From an uncultured Eubacteriales bacterium (GTDB lineage: Bacteria > Bacillota > Clostridia > Oscillospirales > Oscillospiraceae), in assembly GCA_949289455.1 (NCBI GenBank), contig CASEOA010000033.1, forward strand, positions 1-38,291: a stretch of 38,291 bases of DNA. Reading direction: 5' to 3'. A program made the position numbers and the translations under genes. Positions 3,441 through 9,848 of the stretch are shown one piece after another (position 1 is the first letter of the stretch; each line of letters starts with the position of its first letter). Below the pieces are notes generated by a model, which made no database searches, had not been told where the DNA came from, and was given only the letters and a program-made list of their open reading frames with translations.

Positions 3441-4154
3441 TCAGAGAAATTTTCCCGACAGCCAGTCCAGAACGGCCTGGGGAGAGCGCTCGGGCAGATC
3501 CATGGCGTGCTCGGCTCCCCACACCTGTTCCAGATAGTGGGCGTCGGAACTGGTGATGAACCGGAGACCGGCCAAGTCAGGGCGCTGGGAGAAATCGGGG
3601 GGGCAGTTGTGGGAGAGCTCGACGGTGGGGAAGTGCAGGTCGGGGTCCCACAGGCCCAGCACTCCCAGCAGGGAGTAAGAGGGGCGGTCGATGTGGGCGG
3701 GAATGGCCACCCCGCCGAAGTCGGTCACCAACTGGGCCACCTCGTAGATGGGAATGTCGGTGCTGCCCGCCAAAAACCGGGTGTCCTCCTCCAAAATCTG
3801 ATCATCGTCCCCCATGCGGATCTGGGGGCCGAACAGGTCCCGCTTGTTGGGAATCTGGGGCAGATGGGCGGAGACATACTCCTCAAAGGGAAGAGCGGCC
3901 TGAGGGCTGGGGAAGAGGCAGACCACGTGGATGTCCTCCTGGGTGCACAGCTCCATCCCCGCCAGGGCCAACAGGCCGTGGCCCGCGGCGGCCCGGCAAA
4001 AAGGGGCGCAGTTGCCGGTGGTGTTGTGGTCGGTGAGGGCCACGATTTCCAGCCCTGCCAGGGCGCACATGGCCGCCAGGTTGGCGGGGGTCATGTCCTC
4101 GCTGCCGCAGGGCGACAGACAGGAGTGGAGGTGCAGGTCATAGTAATATTTCAA
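3441..4154 (-). CDS. PHP-domain metal-dependent phosphoesterase
   Basis: A 237-residue PHP-superfamily protein, a predicted metallo-phosphoesterase. Metal-binding motifs are DLHLHS near residue 6, TDHNT near 40, GMEL near 65, AHID near 155 and SSDAH near 205. PHP genes recur beside [FeFe]-hydrogenase sensory modules, but the substrate is unknown. The TTG at 4154 is chosen because the conserved motif begins six codons later, and the displaced duplicate of this gene end has a TTG at the same place. An in-frame ATG at 4202 is an alternative. The local SD is poor. The TTG overlaps the stop of a 70-codon chimeric leader ORF (TTGA), so translation may be coupled. The 5' end abuts repeat element E1 and is duplicated upstream of it. 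Confidence 0.85.
   Translation of the reverse strand: MKYYYDLHLHSCLSPCGSEDMTPANLAAMCALAGLEIVALTDHNTTGNCAPFCRAAAGHGLLALAGMELCTQEDIHVVCLFPSPQAALPFEEYVSAHLPQIPNKRDLFGPQIRMGDDDQILEEDTRFLAGSTDIPIYEVAQLVTDFGGVAIPAHIDRPSYSLLGVLGLWDPDLHFPTVELSHNCPPDFSQRPDLAGLRFITSSDAHYLEQVWGAEHAMDLPERSPQAVLDWLSGKFL
4111..4139. repeat. PHP 5'-end core repeat, working copy
   Basis: These 29 bp, beginning GGCGACAGAC on the plus strand, are identical to 4320-4348. They encode the DLHLHS/CLSP segment of the PHP protein. Beyond the core the two copies diverge but stay homologous up to the TTG start. Confidence 0.9.
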
Positions 4155-4363
4155 GAGAAACACCGGCTTTCCGGGCAGAGTGAGGCATTGCCTGTCGCCC
4201 ATCCGCGCCGCAGGCGCGTCCAAGCGTTTTTGCCTGGGGCAAAAACCTTGCCGCAGGGCGGATTCACTCCGCCCGAGGAAGTGAAATCAAGGGGTCCCCG
4301 CAGGGCCGTGGCCCTGTGGGGCGACAGACAGGAGTGGAGGTGCAGGTCGTAATAAAAATTCAA
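4151..4363 (-). other. 70-codon chimeric leader ORF: displaced PHP start fused to element E1
   Basis: The frame opens with TTG at 4363, 6 nt after a GAAGGG SD. It encodes the first ~15 residues of a PHP protein (NFYYDLHLHS then CLSP), reads through E1 and ends with TGA at 4153-4151. The TGA overlaps the TTG start of the intact PHP gene by two bases. Because the intact gene has lost a good SD, this leader could deliver ribosomes by termination-reinitiation. Whether it is translated is not known; the peptide itself looks non-functional. Confidence 0.45.
4220..4321 (+). repeat. repeat element E, copy E1 (three-hairpin mini-element)
   Basis: E1 begins CCAAGCGTTTT and ends TGTGGGG. Hairpin 1 pairs 4226-4234 with 4238-4246. 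Hairpin 2 is GGGCGGA-TTCAC-TCCGCCC at 4256-4274. Hairpin 3 pairs CCCCGCAGGGCC (4296-4307) with GGCCCTGTGGGG (4310-4321), with one G.U pair. Hairpin 2 and the flanks are near-identical to copy E2 near serC. The inner part of hairpin 3 has a different sequence but stays paired. A further short stem (4204-4217) lies in the 65-bp spacer between E1 and the PHP start. The last bases merge with a duplicated piece of the PHP gene. Confidence 0.8.
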
Positions 4364-4366
4364 CAA
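4320..4366 (-). pseudogene. displaced 5' end of the PHP gene
   Basis: This is a second copy of the PHP N-terminus on the far side of E1, with its own SD and TTG. The 29-bp core is identical to the working copy. The next codons differ: two synonymous changes and two conservative ones (K/N and Y/F). Homology ends where E1 begins, so this is a truncated remnant, probably of the previous resident gene start. The start region of the DRTGG operon neighbour continues normally upstream. Confidence 0.75.
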
Positions 4367-4391
4367 AGACCCTTCTTTCGGAGCCGGATAC

Positions 4392-4721
4392 TCAGCCCAG
4401 GCTCTGGCCCAACCGGCAAGCGGCGGTATAGGTGTCCAGGCTGGTACCCAGCAGATTGACCTGTTTGTCCTGGGCCCGGCGGAGCAGATCGGCGTCGGGC
4501 TGGACCCCTTCGGTGAGAATGACGCAGGCCACATCGGCCATCAGGGCCACAGCAGCCACATTCTGATTGGACATGATGGTGAGCCAGGCGCAGTCCTGAC
4601 CTGCCCGGCCCATAACCCAGCTGAGCAGGTCGCCCACATAGCCGCCGGTGACCTGCCGCTCCGGGTCGCTGAGGTGGAAGGGGGTGAGCTCCATAGTTTG
4701 GATCAGCTGCTGAACAGTCAT
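4392..4721 (-). CDS. DRTGG-domain protein (second of two)
   Basis: A 109-residue protein resembling the DRTGG domain, a small alpha/beta domain often seen in clostridial hydrogenase-linked operons and next to CBS domains. It contains GGYVGDLLSWVMGRA near residue 27 and an ILTEG turn. It is related to the other DRTGG protein here (6568-6924), with the same length class and the same ACV/CII-IL pattern. Its biochemical role is unknown; ligand sensing is inference. The ATG at 4721 has an AAAGGAGG SD. It lies 71 nt after the H-cluster protein gene and 28 nt before the PHP leader. Confidence 0.8.
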   Translation of the reverse strand: MTVQQLIQTMELTPFHLSDPERQVTGGYVGDLLSWVMGRAGQDCAWLTIMSNQNVAAVALMADVACVILTEGVQPDADLLRRAQDKQVNLLGTSLDTYTAACRLGQSLG

Positions 4722-4792
4722 AATTGGTAGCCTCCTTTGGTGTGATTCATTAAGAAAGGGCCTGTTGCGGCGGATGGCAACAGGCCCGTGGG

Positions 4793-6118
4793 TTATCGTC
4801 TGGAAGTGTCGTGCTGCTGTCGGCGGAAGGGGGGCGGCAGGTAATCGTCCGCCTCATCCTTGCCGGCCATGGAGCGCATCCGCTCCCGCACGTTGAAGAT
4901 GCAGTCGTCCACTGTGGCCCGGCCCAGCACCACGTCCTCGGCAAAGGCGTGGCAGGAGGGAGCGCCGCAGGAGCCGCAGTGGAGCCCGGGCAGATGGGAC
5001 TCCAGCTCCTGGATGCGCAGCTGCTTGTTGAGGGCTGCCCCCAGATCCTGATCCAGCACGAAGGTGGGTAAGTATTGCAGCTCCTTGTCCCGGCGGACGA
5101 TGTCCCGCTCCTCGCCCTGGAAGGGGAACCGGTTGCGGGAGACGGGCTGGCCTTTCATCAGTCCCTTGATGCGCATTTTGGCGGCATAGGGGTTTTCCAC
5201 CGTGAAGCAGCCTCCCACGCAGCCTTGGGTACAGGCGGACAGCTCCAGGAAGTCGGCCTCGGGCAAGCGGCCGTCCTCAATCTCCTCCAGCATTCGGATC
5301 ACGTTGGACACGCCGTCCACCGCCACGCACTGCTCCCGCAGGCGGGCGGCGCTTTCGCCGCCGCAGGAGGCCCAGCCCAGGCCCATGATCCCCACGGAGG
5401 ACATGGGCTCAATCTGTTCCAGATGCTTCATGGGGCTGAGCAGCCGCAGGTAAATGTCCCGGATGGCAAAGGCACCGTCCAGCACCGGGGCCTGGAGCCC
5501 CTCGGACACCCGGGCGGCGGTGACCTTGGAGGAACAGGGGACAATGGCGAACACGCCGATACGCTCTGGGGGCAGGCCGGTCTCCGCCGCCGCCTCCCGG
5601 CGGGCCAGGATGGCCGCCAGCTCCATGGGCAGAATGGTGCATGCAACATGGGGCAGCAGTTTGGGGAAGCGCATACGGATGAGCCGCAGCACCGTGGGAC
5701 AGGAGGAGGAGATCATGGGAGTCACCTTGGGCGGCCCCTCCAGAATGGACTGGCGTTCAAAATCAGAGATCATCTCGGCGGCCTTGGCCACCTCAAATAC
5801 CTTGTGGAAGCCGATTTTCAGCAGGGCGTTGAGGATGATGTCAATGTTGTCCAGGTTATGAAACTGCCCGTAAAGGGCAGGTTCGGGCAGGGCCACGCAG
5901 TACTCGAACCGGGAGAGGATGTCCAGCTGATCGCCCACCGATTTAATGGCCTTGTGGGGACAGATCCGAATGCACTCGCCGCAGTCGATGCACCGGTCCG
6001 GAAGGATGGTGGCCTTGCGGCCCCGGACACGGATGGCTTCGGTGGGACAGCCCTTGATACAGGAGGTACAGCCGCGGCAGCGTCTGCTGTCCAGAACCAC
6101 GGAATGCCTCATAGCCAT
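4793..6118 (-). CDS. H-cluster-type [Fe-Fe] hydrogenase large-subunit-like iron-sulfur protein
   Basis: A 441-residue protein with three parts. Residues 12-60 hold two [4Fe-4S] motifs (CRGCTSCIKGC and CIDCGECIRIC). The middle is an [FeFe]-hydrogenase large domain with the three H-cluster loops in altered form: SSCP, PCSSK and SACTQGCVGG. The C-terminal part carries an RnfB-like four-Cys motif (CGSCGAPSC with a later C). No PAS domain is seen, unlike classical HydS. Gene context (DRTGG, RsbW-like ATPase, PHP) matches the putative sensory/regulatory hydrogenases of Clostridia. Whether it turns over H2 or only senses it cannot be decided from sequence. ATG at 6118 is used; a second ATG lies two codons downstream (6112), and GAGGTGAG serves either. 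Confidence 0.85.
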   Translation of the reverse strand: MAMRHSVVLDSRRCRGCTSCIKGCPTEAIRVRGRKATILPDRCIDCGECIRICPHKAIKSVGDQLDILSRFEYCVALPEPALYGQFHNLDNIDIILNALLKIGFHKVFEVAKAAEMISDFERQSILEGPPKVTPMISSSCPTVLRLIRMRFPKLLPHVACTILPMELAAILARREAAAETGLPPERIGVFAIVPCSSKVTAARVSEGLQAPVLDGAFAIRDIYLRLLSPMKHLEQIEPMSSVGIMGLGWASCGGESAARLREQCVAVDGVSNVIRMLEEIEDGRLPEADFLELSACTQGCVGGCFTVENPYAAKMRIKGLMKGQPVSRNRFPFQGEERDIVRRDKELQYLPTFVLDQDLGAALNKQLRIQELESHLPGLHCGSCGAPSCHAFAEDVVLGRATVDDCIFNVRERMRSMAGKDEADDYLPPPFRRQQHDTSRR

Positions 6119-6155
6119 GTGCCTGTCTCACCTCGCTTTGATGTGGAACCCTCCA

Positions 6156-6581
6156 TTACTGAGGGATCTTGATCTTGACCGTGACGGTGGTGCCGGTGCC
6201 CACCACAGTGTCAATGGTCATCTCGTCGGAGTAACGCTTCATGTTGGGCAGGCCCATGCCGGCGCCAAAGCCCAGCTCCCGGGCGGTGGAGTCGGCGGTG
6301 GAGTAGCCCTCCTGCATGGCCTGGTCCACGTCGGGAATGCCGGGGCCGGAGTCCATCATGCGGATGGTGATCTGATCGGAGTCCACCTCCACCTGGGCCT
6401 CGCCGCCGTCGGCGTGGATAACCATGTTGATCTCACCTTCGTACATACAGATGGAGGCCCGGCGGATCACATCCTGGGGCAGACCCAGCTTTTTCAGCGT
6501 CAGCTTCATCTTGCTGGAGGCTTCGCCGGCCTCGATCAGGTCGCCGCCCTCCACAGGGTAGACAAGTTTAATCGTTTCCAT
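6156..6581 (-). CDS. RsbW-like anti-sigma/serine kinase ATPase
   Basis: A 141-residue stand-alone HATPase_c protein of the anti-sigma regulatory factor type. Residues 1-60 hold the helical front half. MDSGPGIPD is the G1 box near residue 85, and GFGAGMGLPNMKRYSD is the ATP-lid/G2 region. It would bind a partner or phosphorylate a serine; no partner is encoded in the window. The ATG at 6581 (METIKL) is chosen over 6602 because GAGGAAA sits at the right distance. It overlaps the end of the upstream DRTGG gene by 14 nt, indicating coupling. Confidence 0.85.
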   Translation of the reverse strand: METIKLVYPVEGGDLIEAGEASSKMKLTLKKLGLPQDVIRRASICMYEGEINMVIHADGGEAQVEVDSDQITIRMMDSGPGIPDVDQAMQEGYSTADSTARELGFGAGMGLPNMKRYSDEMTIDTVVGTGTTVTVKIKIPQ

Positions 6582-6924
6582 CGCAATTTCCTCGCAATCC
6601 ATTGTAGTAGAGCAGGCCGCAGGCCTCGTACATGCGCTTGGGACTGGTCATCACCACGATGTCCCGTTCCTCCGCCAGCTTGATGATGTTTTCGCCGGGC
6701 ACCTTGCCCCGGACAAAGATGATGCAGCACATTTCCACCATGTCGGCGGTGCGCACCACTTGCGGGTTGACCAGGCCGGTGAGCAATACGGGCTGGTTTT
6801 TCACATAGGCCAGCACGTCGCTCATAAAGTCGCTGCCGCAGGCGGACATGACCTCCCGGTCCAGGTGCTCCTCGCCCCACAGAACAGTGGCGTTCAGGAT
6901 CTCTTTGATCTCGGAAAGCAGCAT
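6568..6924 (-). CDS. DRTGG-domain protein (first of two)
   Basis: A 118-residue protein and the first gene of the sensory operon. It has a DRTGG-like fold: LLTGLVNPQVVRTADMVEM near residue 47, IIFVRGK near 68 and a short C-terminal tail. Its start at ATG 6924 has a strong GGGAGGG SD and lies 49 nt after the promoter -10. Function is unknown; family members co-occur with the H-cluster protein downstream. Paired DRTGG proteins in one operon suggest a hetero-oligomer, which is inference. Confidence 0.8.
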   Translation of the reverse strand: MLLSEIKEILNATVLWGEEHLDREVMSACGSDFMSDVLAYVKNQPVLLTGLVNPQVVRTADMVEMCCIIFVRGKVPGENIIKLAEERDIVVMTSPKRMYEACGLLYYNGLRGNCDGND

Positions 6925-6972
6925 AAGCCTTCTATCCCTCCCCTGGAAAAACTAAACTCTTAGTTTATGGGC

Positions 6973-7001
6973 ATTGTATCACAAAACCCGCCGGAGTGCA
7001 A
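6973..7001 (-). promoter_or_regulatory. promoter of the DRTGG/H-cluster operon
   Basis: On the minus strand TTGCAC (6996-7001) and TACAAT (6973-6978) are 17 nt apart, with TGTGA directly before the -10 as in the structural hydrogenase promoter. Confidence 0.8.
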
Positions 7002-7066
7002 AGGGTACCTTGAAACATTCACAAACTTTTTACCATCCGAAGTAAGCTTTTGGGTACTCCGTGCAC

Positions 7067-7096
7067 TTGACAGCACTGGTGGGAGGTGGCTATAAT
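7067..7096 (+). promoter_or_regulatory. serC-serA promoter
   Basis: A consensus TTGACA (7067-7072) and TATAAT (7091-7096) with an 18-nt spacer, 76 nt before the serC ATG. It diverges from the DRTGG operon promoter; the two -35 elements are about 65 nt apart. Confidence 0.85.
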
Positions 7097-7172
7097 AGAC
7101 TTTATCAATGTAAAGCGAAGCAATTCCGCAGAGCATTGCAATTACTTTTCGATTTTGAGGAGGCCATCTATC

Positions 7173-8258
7173 ATGGGTAACGAGCGCGTGTACAATTTCT
7201 CCGCAGGCCCGTCCATGCTCCCCCTGGAAGTGCTGGAGCGTGCTGGAGCCGAGATCACCAACTATCAGGGGTCCGGCATGTCAGTCATGGAGATGAGTCA
7301 CCGATCTAAGGTATTCCAGAAGATTTTTGACGACACCCAGGCTAAGCTGCGCAAGCTGATGAACGTGCCCGAGGGCTATAAGATCCTGTTCCTCCAGGGC
7401 GGCGCCTCTTCCCAGTTTTCCATGGCGCCCCTGAACCTGATCGGCAAGACCGGCAAGGCCGACTACGCTGTCACCGGCAACTTCTCCAACATTGCCTATA
7501 AGGAGGCCAAGAAGTACGGCACCATCAACCTGGCTGCCTCTTCCGCCGACAAGAACCACACCTACATCCCCACCCAGGATCAGATCACCCTGGACCCCGA
7601 GGCCAGCTACTTCTATTACTGCGCCAACAACACCATCTACGGCACCGAGTGGCAGTACGTCCCCGAGACCAACGGGGTGCCCATCGTGTGTGACATGTCC
7701 TCCGACATCCTGTCCCGCCCGGTGGACGTGAGCAAGTACGGCATCATCTTCGCCGGCGCCCAGAAGAACATGGCCCCCGCCGGCCTTACCGTGGTCATCA
7801 TCAAGGAGGAGCTGGCCGGTCAGGAGCTGCCCTATACCCCTCTGATGATGAACTACAAGACTATGATCGACAAGGATTCCATGTACAACACCCCGCCCTG
7901 CTGGTGCATCTACATCCTGGGCCTGGTGCTGGACTGGCTGGAGTCCAAGGGCGGCCTGCCCGGCATGGAGGCCATCAAGCACGGCAAGGCCCAGATGCTG
8001 TACGATGTTATCGACAACTCCAAGCTGTTCACCTGCGCCGTGGAGCCCGGCTCCCGGTCCGATATGAATGTGGTGTTCCGCACCGGTAACGACGAGCTGG
8101 ACACCAAGTTTGTCAAGGAGAGCGTCGAGGCCGGCTTTACCAACCTGAAGGGCCATCGCTCCGTGGGCGGCATGCGGGCGTCCATCTACAACGCCATGCC
8201 CACCGAAGGCGTGGAGAAGCTGTGCGACTTTATCAAGGCGTTTGATAAGAACAACTAA
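7173..8258 (+). CDS. serC: phosphoserine aminotransferase SerC
   Basis: A 361-residue PLP enzyme of the second step of serine synthesis: 3-phosphohydroxypyruvate plus glutamate gives phosphoserine. The N-terminus VYNFSAGPSMLP is diagnostic. The PLP lysine is K198 in GAQKNMAPAG, the same number as in E. coli SerC. The frame is open upstream to 7086, but ATG 7173 has a GAGGAGG SD and matches the family. The last 94 bp (8165-8258) are repeated downstream of element E2 with five synonymous differences, so this gene's 3' end is one of two alleles. serA follows after the repeat structure. Confidence 0.96.
   Translation: MGNERVYNFSAGPSMLPLEVLERAGAEITNYQGSGMSVMEMSHRSKVFQKIFDDTQAKLRKLMNVPEGYKILFLQGGASSQFSMAPLNLIGKTGKADYAVTGNFSNIAYKEAKKYGTINLAASSADKNHTYIPTQDQITLDPEASYFYYCANNTIYGTEWQYVPETNGVPIVCDMSSDILSRPVDVSKYGIIFAGAQKNMAPAGLTVVIIKEELAGQELPYTPLMMNYKTMIDKDSMYNTPPCWCIYILGLVLDWLESKGGLPGMEAIKHGKAQMLYDVIDNSKLFTCAVEPGSRSDMNVVFRTGNDELDTKFVKESVEAGFTNLKGHRSVGGMRASIYNAMPTEGVEKLCDFIKAFDKNN
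8165..8258 (+). repeat. serC: serC 3'-end repeat, working copy
   Basis: 94 bp starting GGGCGGCATG and ending at the serC stop, repeated at 8387-8480. The first ~62 bp are identical. The five differences all fall in the last ~32 bp, and each is in a third codon position. Confidence 0.95.
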
Positions 8259-8279
8259 GCCCGCGGGACGCCCACGGAA

Positions 8280-8386
8280 CCAAGCGTTTTGCCCCTTTGG
8301 GGCAAAACCTTGATGCCGGGCGGATTCACTCCGCCCGAGCAGATAAAATCCCTTGGGGCCCCGCAAAATGTCTCATTTTGTGGGCA
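8280..8386 (+). repeat. repeat element E, copy E2 (three-hairpin mini-element)
   Basis: E2 begins CCAAGCGTTTT and ends TGTGGGCA. Hairpin 1 pairs GTTTTGCCCC (8286-8295) with its complement at 8299-8308. Hairpin 2 is GGGCGGA-TTCAC-TCCGCCC at 8318-8336. Hairpin 3 pairs CCCGCAAAATG (8360-8370) with CATTTTGTGGG (8374-8384), loop TCT, with the G.U pair in the same place as in E1. It starts 21 bp after the serC stop and runs directly into a displaced copy of the serC 3' end. No U-run follows hairpin 3, so it is not a standard terminator. Confidence 0.8.
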
Positions 8387-8480
8387 GGGCGGCATGCGGG
8401 CGTCCATCTACAACGCCATGCCCACCGAAGGCGTGGAGAAGCTGTGCGATTTCATTAAGGCCTTCGATAAGAACAACTAA
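8387..8480 (+). pseudogene. serC: displaced 3' end of serC
   Basis: The last 31 codons of serC in a second copy between E2 and serA. All five differences from the working copy are synonymous (GAC/GAT, TTT/TTC, ATC/ATT, GCG/GCC, TTT/TTC). This points to an allele that was under selection until recently, not to slow decay of a duplicate. An open frame from a TTG at 8289 reads through E2 into this copy in frame (63 codons), but there is no convincing SD and it is probably not expressed. Confidence 0.85.
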
Positions 8481-9670: not shown

Positions 9671-9699
9671 TTGACAAATTCCGGCGGACAAGTTAAAAT
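9671..9699 (+). promoter_or_regulatory. promoter of the thiamine salvage operon
   Basis: TTGACA (9671-9676) and TAAAAT (9694-9699) with a 17-nt spacer, starting 3 nt after the serA stop and ending just before the riboswitch. Confidence 0.85.
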
Positions 9700-9708
9700 C
9701 GACTGTGC

Positions 9709-9787
9709 AAGGGAGCTTCCGCGAGGAGGCTGAGAGGAGGGGAGAGTCCCTCGACCTGACCTGATTTGGGTAATGCCAACGTAGGGA
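9709..9787 (+). ncRNA. TPP riboswitch (THI element)
   Basis: The conserved parts of the thiamine pyrophosphate aptamer are present in order: GGAGGCTGAGAGG near 9724, ACCTGATTTGGGTAATGCCA near 9759-9778, and the closing CGTAGGGA. It lies directly downstream of a promoter and upstream of an intrinsic terminator, so TPP binding probably causes transcription attenuation of thiD and the downstream genes. Confidence 0.95.
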
Positions 9788-9848
9788 CGCAGCGCCACTT
9801 CCGTGCGGGGTCTCCTCCGTCCGGAGGGGCAGCAATACGTACAGAATC

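Follow-up and report, generated by a model that had tools for sequence, protein, structure and literature searches.

A three-hairpin element flanked by duplicated gene ends in Flavonifractor, an apparently new kind of small mobile DNA

Introduction

In fungal mitochondria, the elements known as mORFs (in atp6 of Allomyces and in atp6, atp9, cox2 and nad3 of Glomus) are described as carrying a replacement C-terminus and leaving the native gene end downstream, and in Glomus atp6 this native end differs from that of a relative by synonymous changes only; these mitochondrial elements code for an endonuclease (PMC3630166). Here we describe E, a core of three hairpins that is present in two copies (E1 and E2) in a 38,291-nt stretch of DNA, the window, from an uncultured Eubacteriales bacterium of the Oscillospiraceae (assembly GCA_949289455.1, contig CASEOA010000033.1, positions 1 to 38,291, forward strand). 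Our reading of the sequences, which we hold to be probable though far from assured, is that E forms the core of a small mobile element, non-autonomous and located in gene ends, which equips the gene it enters with a replacement end and passes from species to species through homologous recombination. It would appear to be small mobile DNA of a kind not described before.

Of the systems compared, mORFs come closest to E in way of life, because the E unit, too, arrives with a gene end that takes the place of the native one, most clearly at gdhA of two congeneric genomes (G004 and G015). In contrast to mORFs, E is about 100 nt of hairpins with no open reading frame (ORF); an inverted junction copy (A_rc) goes with it, and a single genome may hold tens of copies.

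Short, dispersed, non-autonomous palindromes are also known as REPs and REPINs, which are associated with RAYT proteins; REPs are 20-40 bp long and have GTAG or CGTC tags (PMC3733652, PMC3116915, PMC8266576). Many RAYT genes adjoin GTAG REPs, and neither Firmicutes nor Clostridi- appears as a word in that paper (PMC3733652). Judged by these accounts, E shares with REPs that it is short, dispersed, non-autonomous and palindromic, but it is larger, lacks a constant tag (CGTC or GTC precedes the first hairpin in part of the copies), carries gene ends, and shows no link to RAYT. Some integrative elements restore the 3' end of the tRNA or protein gene that they enter; such elements as a rule carry an integrase gene and are confined to a single site. 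E resembles them in that the end of the target gene is regenerated, and differs in occupying many genes and in having no integrase. Classical miniature inverted-repeat transposable elements differ from E as well, since its inverted repeat is target-derived and varies from site to site, and its duplication, mostly of about 40-140 nt, is not short.

No description of E was found in literature titles among the matches listed. Thousands of candidate structured RNAs have been reported from human microbiomes (PMC8040213); the main text of that paper does not contain the words Flavonifractor or Oscillospir-, and E may be among those candidates.

Results

E belongs to a dispersed family

Most comparisons were made in a congener set of 20 genomes of one genus (Flavonifractor), in which the window genome is G000. 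A covariance model (R1) built from 23 E copies identified 12 copies in the window genome, E1 and E2 included. At an E-value threshold of 0.01, with 150 candidates scored per genome, 495 matches were found in 20/20 congeners, some of which may be spurious, as weak matches (<30 bits) accounted for 11/119 in one set and mostly lay on the opposite strand of a real copy. Across the order, with ten candidates scored per genome, matches at E-value <=0.001 were present in 51 of the 394 sampled genomes and in 30 of the 168 genera. Many dispersed copies are what the preliminary description of E1 and E2 had named as support for a mini-element. It had also recognized no known repeat family, in agreement with Rfam, where no match (group I/II introns and HEARO included) lay over E, either in the window at the gathering threshold or in four loci at a lax threshold.

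At some loci, gene end, A_rc and E are repeated in tandem as 3-4 units with a spacing of about 200-220 nt (L221 in G372, L081 and L082 in G017). Relatives of E in genus g24, which belongs to another family, lie between genes, in composites with further hairpins that also recur, and have no duplicated gene end (L129-L131, L204-L211). In a viral collection, 2 of the 7 contigs with the letters of hairpin 2 contain a full E; a scan of viral contigs with the hairpin 1 pattern gave 0 matches.

Duplicated gene ends and an inverted junction copy surround E

The main feature of the family had been overlooked at first reading, namely duplicated gene ends on both sides of E plus an inverted copy of the junction. 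The order along the E strand is the gene body (P), the gene-joined end (B', with the stop codon and sometimes a terminator), the inverted copy of the P|B' junction (A_rc), the hairpin core (E), and a second gene end (B) that runs into downstream DNA. The preliminary description was therefore right about the hairpin core, but E alone is not the recurring unit, which is B', A_rc and E, followed by the second gene end. Extra hairpins (hp0, hp00) often stand ahead of the first of the three core hairpins (hp1-hp3), so that E is not limited to three.

In 83 of the 101 copies surveyed, no more than 8 nt separate E from the start of a qualifying duplicate; the duplication is mostly ~40-140 nt long. 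The spacing from A_rc to hp1 is often ~2, 20 or 30-40 nt. With at most ~40 nt there, where A_rc is clear, and B so close behind E, too little space is left for an ORF. A strong inverted junction copy (score >=12) was detected at 47 of 76 distinct sites and at none of the 76 in a reversed control; at score >=9, the numbers were 63 and 10.

Filled and empty gdhA loci

By model search, 12 of the 20 congeners have E in gdhA, where kinds of untranslated region (UTR) were sorted by reading the terminators. Five congeners are empty, having a single end, their own terminators and no A_rc-like sequence. G000 and G007 have an A_rc-like sequence without E, and the contig of G012 ends inside the element. 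The G000 locus (L181) combines an element-type terminator with the A_rc-like sequence, as if E had been lost. A_rc-like sequence was found at 14/14 loci with an element-type UTR on the gene-joined end and at 0/5 empty loci.

Ten filled loci could be compared for both ends (L196 of G013 was excluded for an N run, and a second G006 end with TGA was not captured by the pattern). B' has one terminator kind in 10/10, and B has another kind in 5/10. The B ends of G004 and G015 match the empty loci of G002 and G018 at identities of 0.89-0.92; the B' end of G004 is similar to the ends of G009, G014 and G016 (0.77-0.82). A third kind of B occurs in G001, G003 and G016, with identities of 0.76-0.79 among the three and unlike their own B', and we infer that it is the native end. 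The differing 3'UTR kinds of B' and B, together with the two B ends that match empty loci, identify B', A_rc and E as the moving unit, with a length of 249-256 nt at gdhA and of 209 and 222 nt in the window. On this comparison, B', A_rc and E entered an existing gdhA as one block in G004 and G015, and probably also in G001, G003 and G016.

E might alternatively be a host element of the 3'UTR or of RNA stability, old, duplicated and immobile. In its favor, several targets are housekeeping genes, but the occurrence of filled and empty alleles at the same site in different congeners, the differing gene ends, the tandem arrays and the full E copies in viral-collection contigs make this explanation very unlikely.

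Both gene ends are constrained as coding sequence

Pfam was used to test 20 ORF translations from 19 chosen sites (L087 in both orientations). Twelve sense translations matched, 5 antisense translations matched, and 3 sense translations were unmatched. Sense targets with a Pfam match include RNase HI, RNase III, EF-G, GroEL, rubrerythrin, PGI and FTHFS, whereas the antisense targets, in which E is at the 5' gene end, are PHP, two racemases, TruB and CinA.

B' and B differ at codon positions 1, 2 and 3 in 33, 20 and 191 cases, or in 31, 19 and 180 without the antisense loci L056, L030, L106 and L087, which had been scored in the wrong sense frame. Changed codons are synonymous in 187 cases and not in 37. 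In 64 of 65 cases a stop codon is retained, at times a different one. By this measure B' and B are both under coding constraint, since free drift after duplication predicts about half the neutral differences at positions 1 and 2, and far fewer were observed. B' and B differ by 2.6% in the first 10 nt from the junction and by 14% at 70-80 nt; beyond 80 nt, the values are 9.5%, 4% and 1/3 (68 sites in all).

That B appears as constrained as B', and that 12 of the 20 tested translations belong to sense genes recognized by Pfam, could mean that E is intron-like, B', A_rc and E being removed from the RNA while A_rc holds P and the second copy of the continuation Q together, so that B is translated. 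The constraint would favor RNA splicing, but the antisense copies at 5' gene ends speak against it, as do the gdhA ends, whose UTR differences give an alternative reason for constraint. In the PHP copies read, B has likewise retained a start codon and a ribosome site, A_rc follows the left Q over the right Q (see below), and no Rfam intron matched, which leaves splicing most improbable.

The two copies in the window

E1 lies at the 5' end of a PHP-domain gene and E2 at the 3' end of serC. Direct reading confirmed both copies as first described, with a shared left end, the identical hairpin GGGCGGA-TTCAC-TCCGCCC, a change of five of the six inner pairs of hp3, and a change in the length of hp1. 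Folded as single-stranded DNA, each was better than all of its 200 shuffles (z -4.4 for E1 and -5.3 for E2).

In serC, the junction region copied by A_rc is at 8160-8179 (+), with P at 8160-8164 and the insertion point at 8164|8165. The serC copy in use, with an Aminotran_5 match, ends with the 94 nt of B' (8165-8258, +; stop codon 8256-8258). Directly after B' follows the 20-nt A_rc (8259-8278, +), which covers serC from -5 to +15 around the insertion point, is 85% complementary to 8160-8179, and would form two helices with an internal loop. The E2 core (8281-8384, +; R1 89.1 bits, E-value 5.4e-19) consists of hp1 (8281-8312), hp2 (8318-8336), a GGGG linker (8355-8358) and hp3 (8359-8384). 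The second serC end, B (8387-8480, +), is 95% identical to B' (repeats 8165-8258 and 8387-8480), with five differences that are all synonymous. Downstream of B, a spacer and a Shine-Dalgarno sequence resemble those of empty relatives and precede the next gene (ATG 8498). Among the congeners, E is found in serC in 2 of 20 (G000 and G013), at the same site; the G008 and G019 loci are cut at contig ends. In serC of G001, which has no E, a hairpin like hp3 stands behind the stop codon, preceded by GGGATCCCC, and is perhaps an element remnant (L153). Just after the gene that follows serC, a thiamine pyrophosphate (TPP) riboswitch match was obtained at 9698-9804 (+; 54.0 bits against an Rfam gathering threshold of 54.3, E-value 3.2e-08).

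At the PHP gene, the gene is on the strand opposite to E. B' (4113-4188, -) is the end joined to the gene, in which the PHP domain was matched, with a TTG start at 4154-4152 by reading, and its upstream region is nearly identical to the G006 locus. A_rc (4189-4200, +) is an inverted copy of the junction at 4110-4121 (92% complementary), and an optional extra hairpin, hp0, was read from the sequence between A_rc and hp1 (4205-4217, +). The E1 core (4221-4321, +; R1 98.1 bits, E-value 3.2e-21) contains hp1 (4221-4250), hp2 (4256-4274), the GGGG linker (4291-4294) and hp3 (4296-4321). B (4322-4377, -) is a second, displaced 5' end of the PHP gene, with TTG at 4363-4361 and a Shine-Dalgarno-like AAGAAGGG at 4377-4370, both by reading, and it is similar to the empty PHP locus of G010. 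The gene-end repeats (4110-4161 and 4319-4370) are 87% identical. By model, E is present at this gene in 5 of 20 congeners, plus a sixth, G006, that is interrupted by a contig end.

Covariation in the hairpin core

The E core is ~95-110 nt long with three helices. In an alignment of 115 distinct copies (A2), which was fitted to the E structure and is hence biased towards it, 99.3% of cells are paired against 79.9% in shuffled data, 27 of the 28 pairs are changed on both sides, and 539 double-change cells compare with 132 after shuffling; all three helices covary. An alignment of 23 copies made by MAFFT, in which the structure was not used (A1), gave 99.4% paired cells and 66 against 18 double-change cells. 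Its weak point is that its number of pairs changed on both sides (8) was reached in 110 of 500 shuffles, and hp2 is invariant in it. Covariation with preserved pairing, seen first between E1 and E2, is found in the family at large.

Helix cells comprise 3074 Watson-Crick, 78 GU (54 of them at one pair) and 7 AC combinations. At the special pair, in hp3, 97 of 114 rows have a T facing G or A; outside it, 24 G.U compare with 6 A.C in ~3,060 cells. Both observations suggest that one strand is the relevant one. The earlier proposal of selection on DNA or RNA structure is upheld by the strong covariation, but RNA and single-stranded DNA are both compatible with the pairing data. Apart from the special pair, the helices are almost entirely Watson-Crick, and most structured RNAs carry more wobble pairs.

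Near-perfect hairpins in which one strand matters would be expected if a Y1/HUH transposase (RAYT or IS200 type) recognized the E hairpins in trans, the 3' end of E being joined to Q and strand-displacing repair synthesis from P duplicating the gene end. The junction preference (G at -2 in 58 of 74 sites) also favors such single-stranded DNA transposition, as does the presence of RAYT-like proteins in the genus. These proteins do not follow E, however. RAYT-model matches were found in 21 of 49 genomes with E and in 11 of 31 without, only 1 of the 80 genomes having one above the curated cut-off, and some being of IS200 type. Y1_Tnp matches were present in 10 of 20 congeners, G014 and G018 have E without a RAYT or Y1 match, and no E was found within 1.1-2.1 kb around nine RAYT-like ORFs. 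To our knowledge, long duplications and an A_rc are not features of the Y1/RAYT family, and overall we regard this form of transposition as unlikely.

Three of the RAYT-like genes (L228 in G006, L229 in G016, L233 in G015) occupy the same place in three congeners, with no E beside them and with neighbors that are presumably miaB and mutS; the shared position suggests vertical inheritance. In G007, an IS200-type transposase ORF (L224:665-1476) starts ~230-290 nt downstream of an E copy, probably by coincidence.

A reverse transcriptase is not supported as obligatory partner, since RVT_1 was found in 7/20 congeners only, and not in G006 (99% complete, 24 R1 matches). Mutagenesis of the type of diversity-generating retroelements is at odds with the differences, none of the five in E2 involving A and those of the family as a whole falling mainly on the third codon position (no adenine count covered all copies). 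No larger autonomous version was seen in the short flanks of 12 selected copies.

A_rc often changes with its target

A_rc sides with the left copy at P by 217 to 23 and at Q by 17 to 8, with 8 siding with neither. By reading, changes in the junction region (A) are mirrored in A_rc in seven target-gene groups (gdhA L052; alanyl-tRNA-synthetase-like L042 and L092; L085; L066/L094; L091/L102; L072; L049/L022). Between the serC copies of G000 and G013, both A_rc helices are kept and the loop letters between them differ. Mismatches between A and A_rc have no wobble preference (GU 9, AC 8), so that DNA-level correction of imperfect palindromes is as possible as selection on RNA.

An RNA of the form 5'-A_rc-E-3' might guide a nuclease to the empty P|Q, with the cut allele repaired by copying the element. 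E is scaffold-like in appearance, and an A_rc that spans the junction (~-6 to +8..+15) and often changes with the target is what such homing would need. The filled allele nevertheless retains the full P|Q target, and the mismatches lack the wobble preference that an RNA guide might show. The IscB N-domain was found in 0/20 genomes, in a search without positive control that is no proof of absence, nuclease genes in general not having been searched for. We consider RNA-guided homing quite unlikely.

Discussion

The observations are consistent with a mobile unit of B', A_rc and E that would insert at P|Q inside a gene. B', consisting of the last 30-100 nt of coding sequence, the stop codon and sometimes a terminator, would supply a working end, so that the gene survives and the old end, B, is displaced downstream of E. 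In antisense copies, B' would supply a start codon and ribosome site instead. An allele with E would enter a species without it by homologous recombination, with the gene body as left arm and B as right arm, and from this one expects B'/B differences that are mostly synonymous and rise with distance from the junction.

For the first insertion into a new gene we can offer a weaker suggestion. Fold-back and template-switching copying may duplicate the gene end and leave A_rc as a scar. In rubrerythrin, groEL and gdhA (G009, G014), B' and B share the UTR kind, B' ends at or a few nt from the T-run of a terminator, and ~3-5 nt of shared letters are seen by eye at the start of A_rc. Although three genes are few, this is as expected from self-primed fold-back synthesis, on DNA or at a transcript end. 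A:A_rc pairing seems often to be maintained later, by selection or by quasi-palindrome correction.

Several points weigh against the mobile-element interpretation. Movement was never observed and is known from comparison alone, and with one genome per species, many of them metagenome-assembled, polymorphism within species is beyond view. No qualifying duplicate was found in 18 of the 101 copies surveyed, nor in the intergenic copies of genus g24. At gdhA, B' and B are of the same kind in the other 5/10 loci, no closely matching empty locus exists for B of G001, G003 and G016, and pairwise identities overlap between kinds (0.65 for G009 B' against the empty G002 locus). A and A_rc have unmatched positions in rubrerythrin (L040 and L051), L067/L053/L101, L107, L055 and E2. 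Filled loci retain the complete P|Q site, with no obvious bar to repeated insertion or, if A_rc guides, to self-targeting, and the fold-back model leaves the joining of E itself unexplained. Finally, no tested protein family tracks E, RAYT included (nuclease families in general were not searched for).

A bolder version of the mobile-element interpretation, to which we give a small but real chance, is that E represents a protein-free class of gene-end-swapping elements. E would write an A_rc of its own junction, keep it matched while the gene drifts, and use it as RNA or single-stranded DNA to guide its spread into empty alleles with host enzymes, the spare gene end making the insertion harmless.

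If the interpretation is true, common gut bacteria carry a protein-free mobile element, with as many as tens of copies in one genome, that avoids harm by bringing a replacement end for any gene it enters, and the duplicated gene ends in Oscillospiraceae genomes would be explained. E would then be a bacterial counterpart of the fungal mORFs, and its many filled and empty sites, some of them in culturable strains, would be available for the study of a new insertion mechanism.

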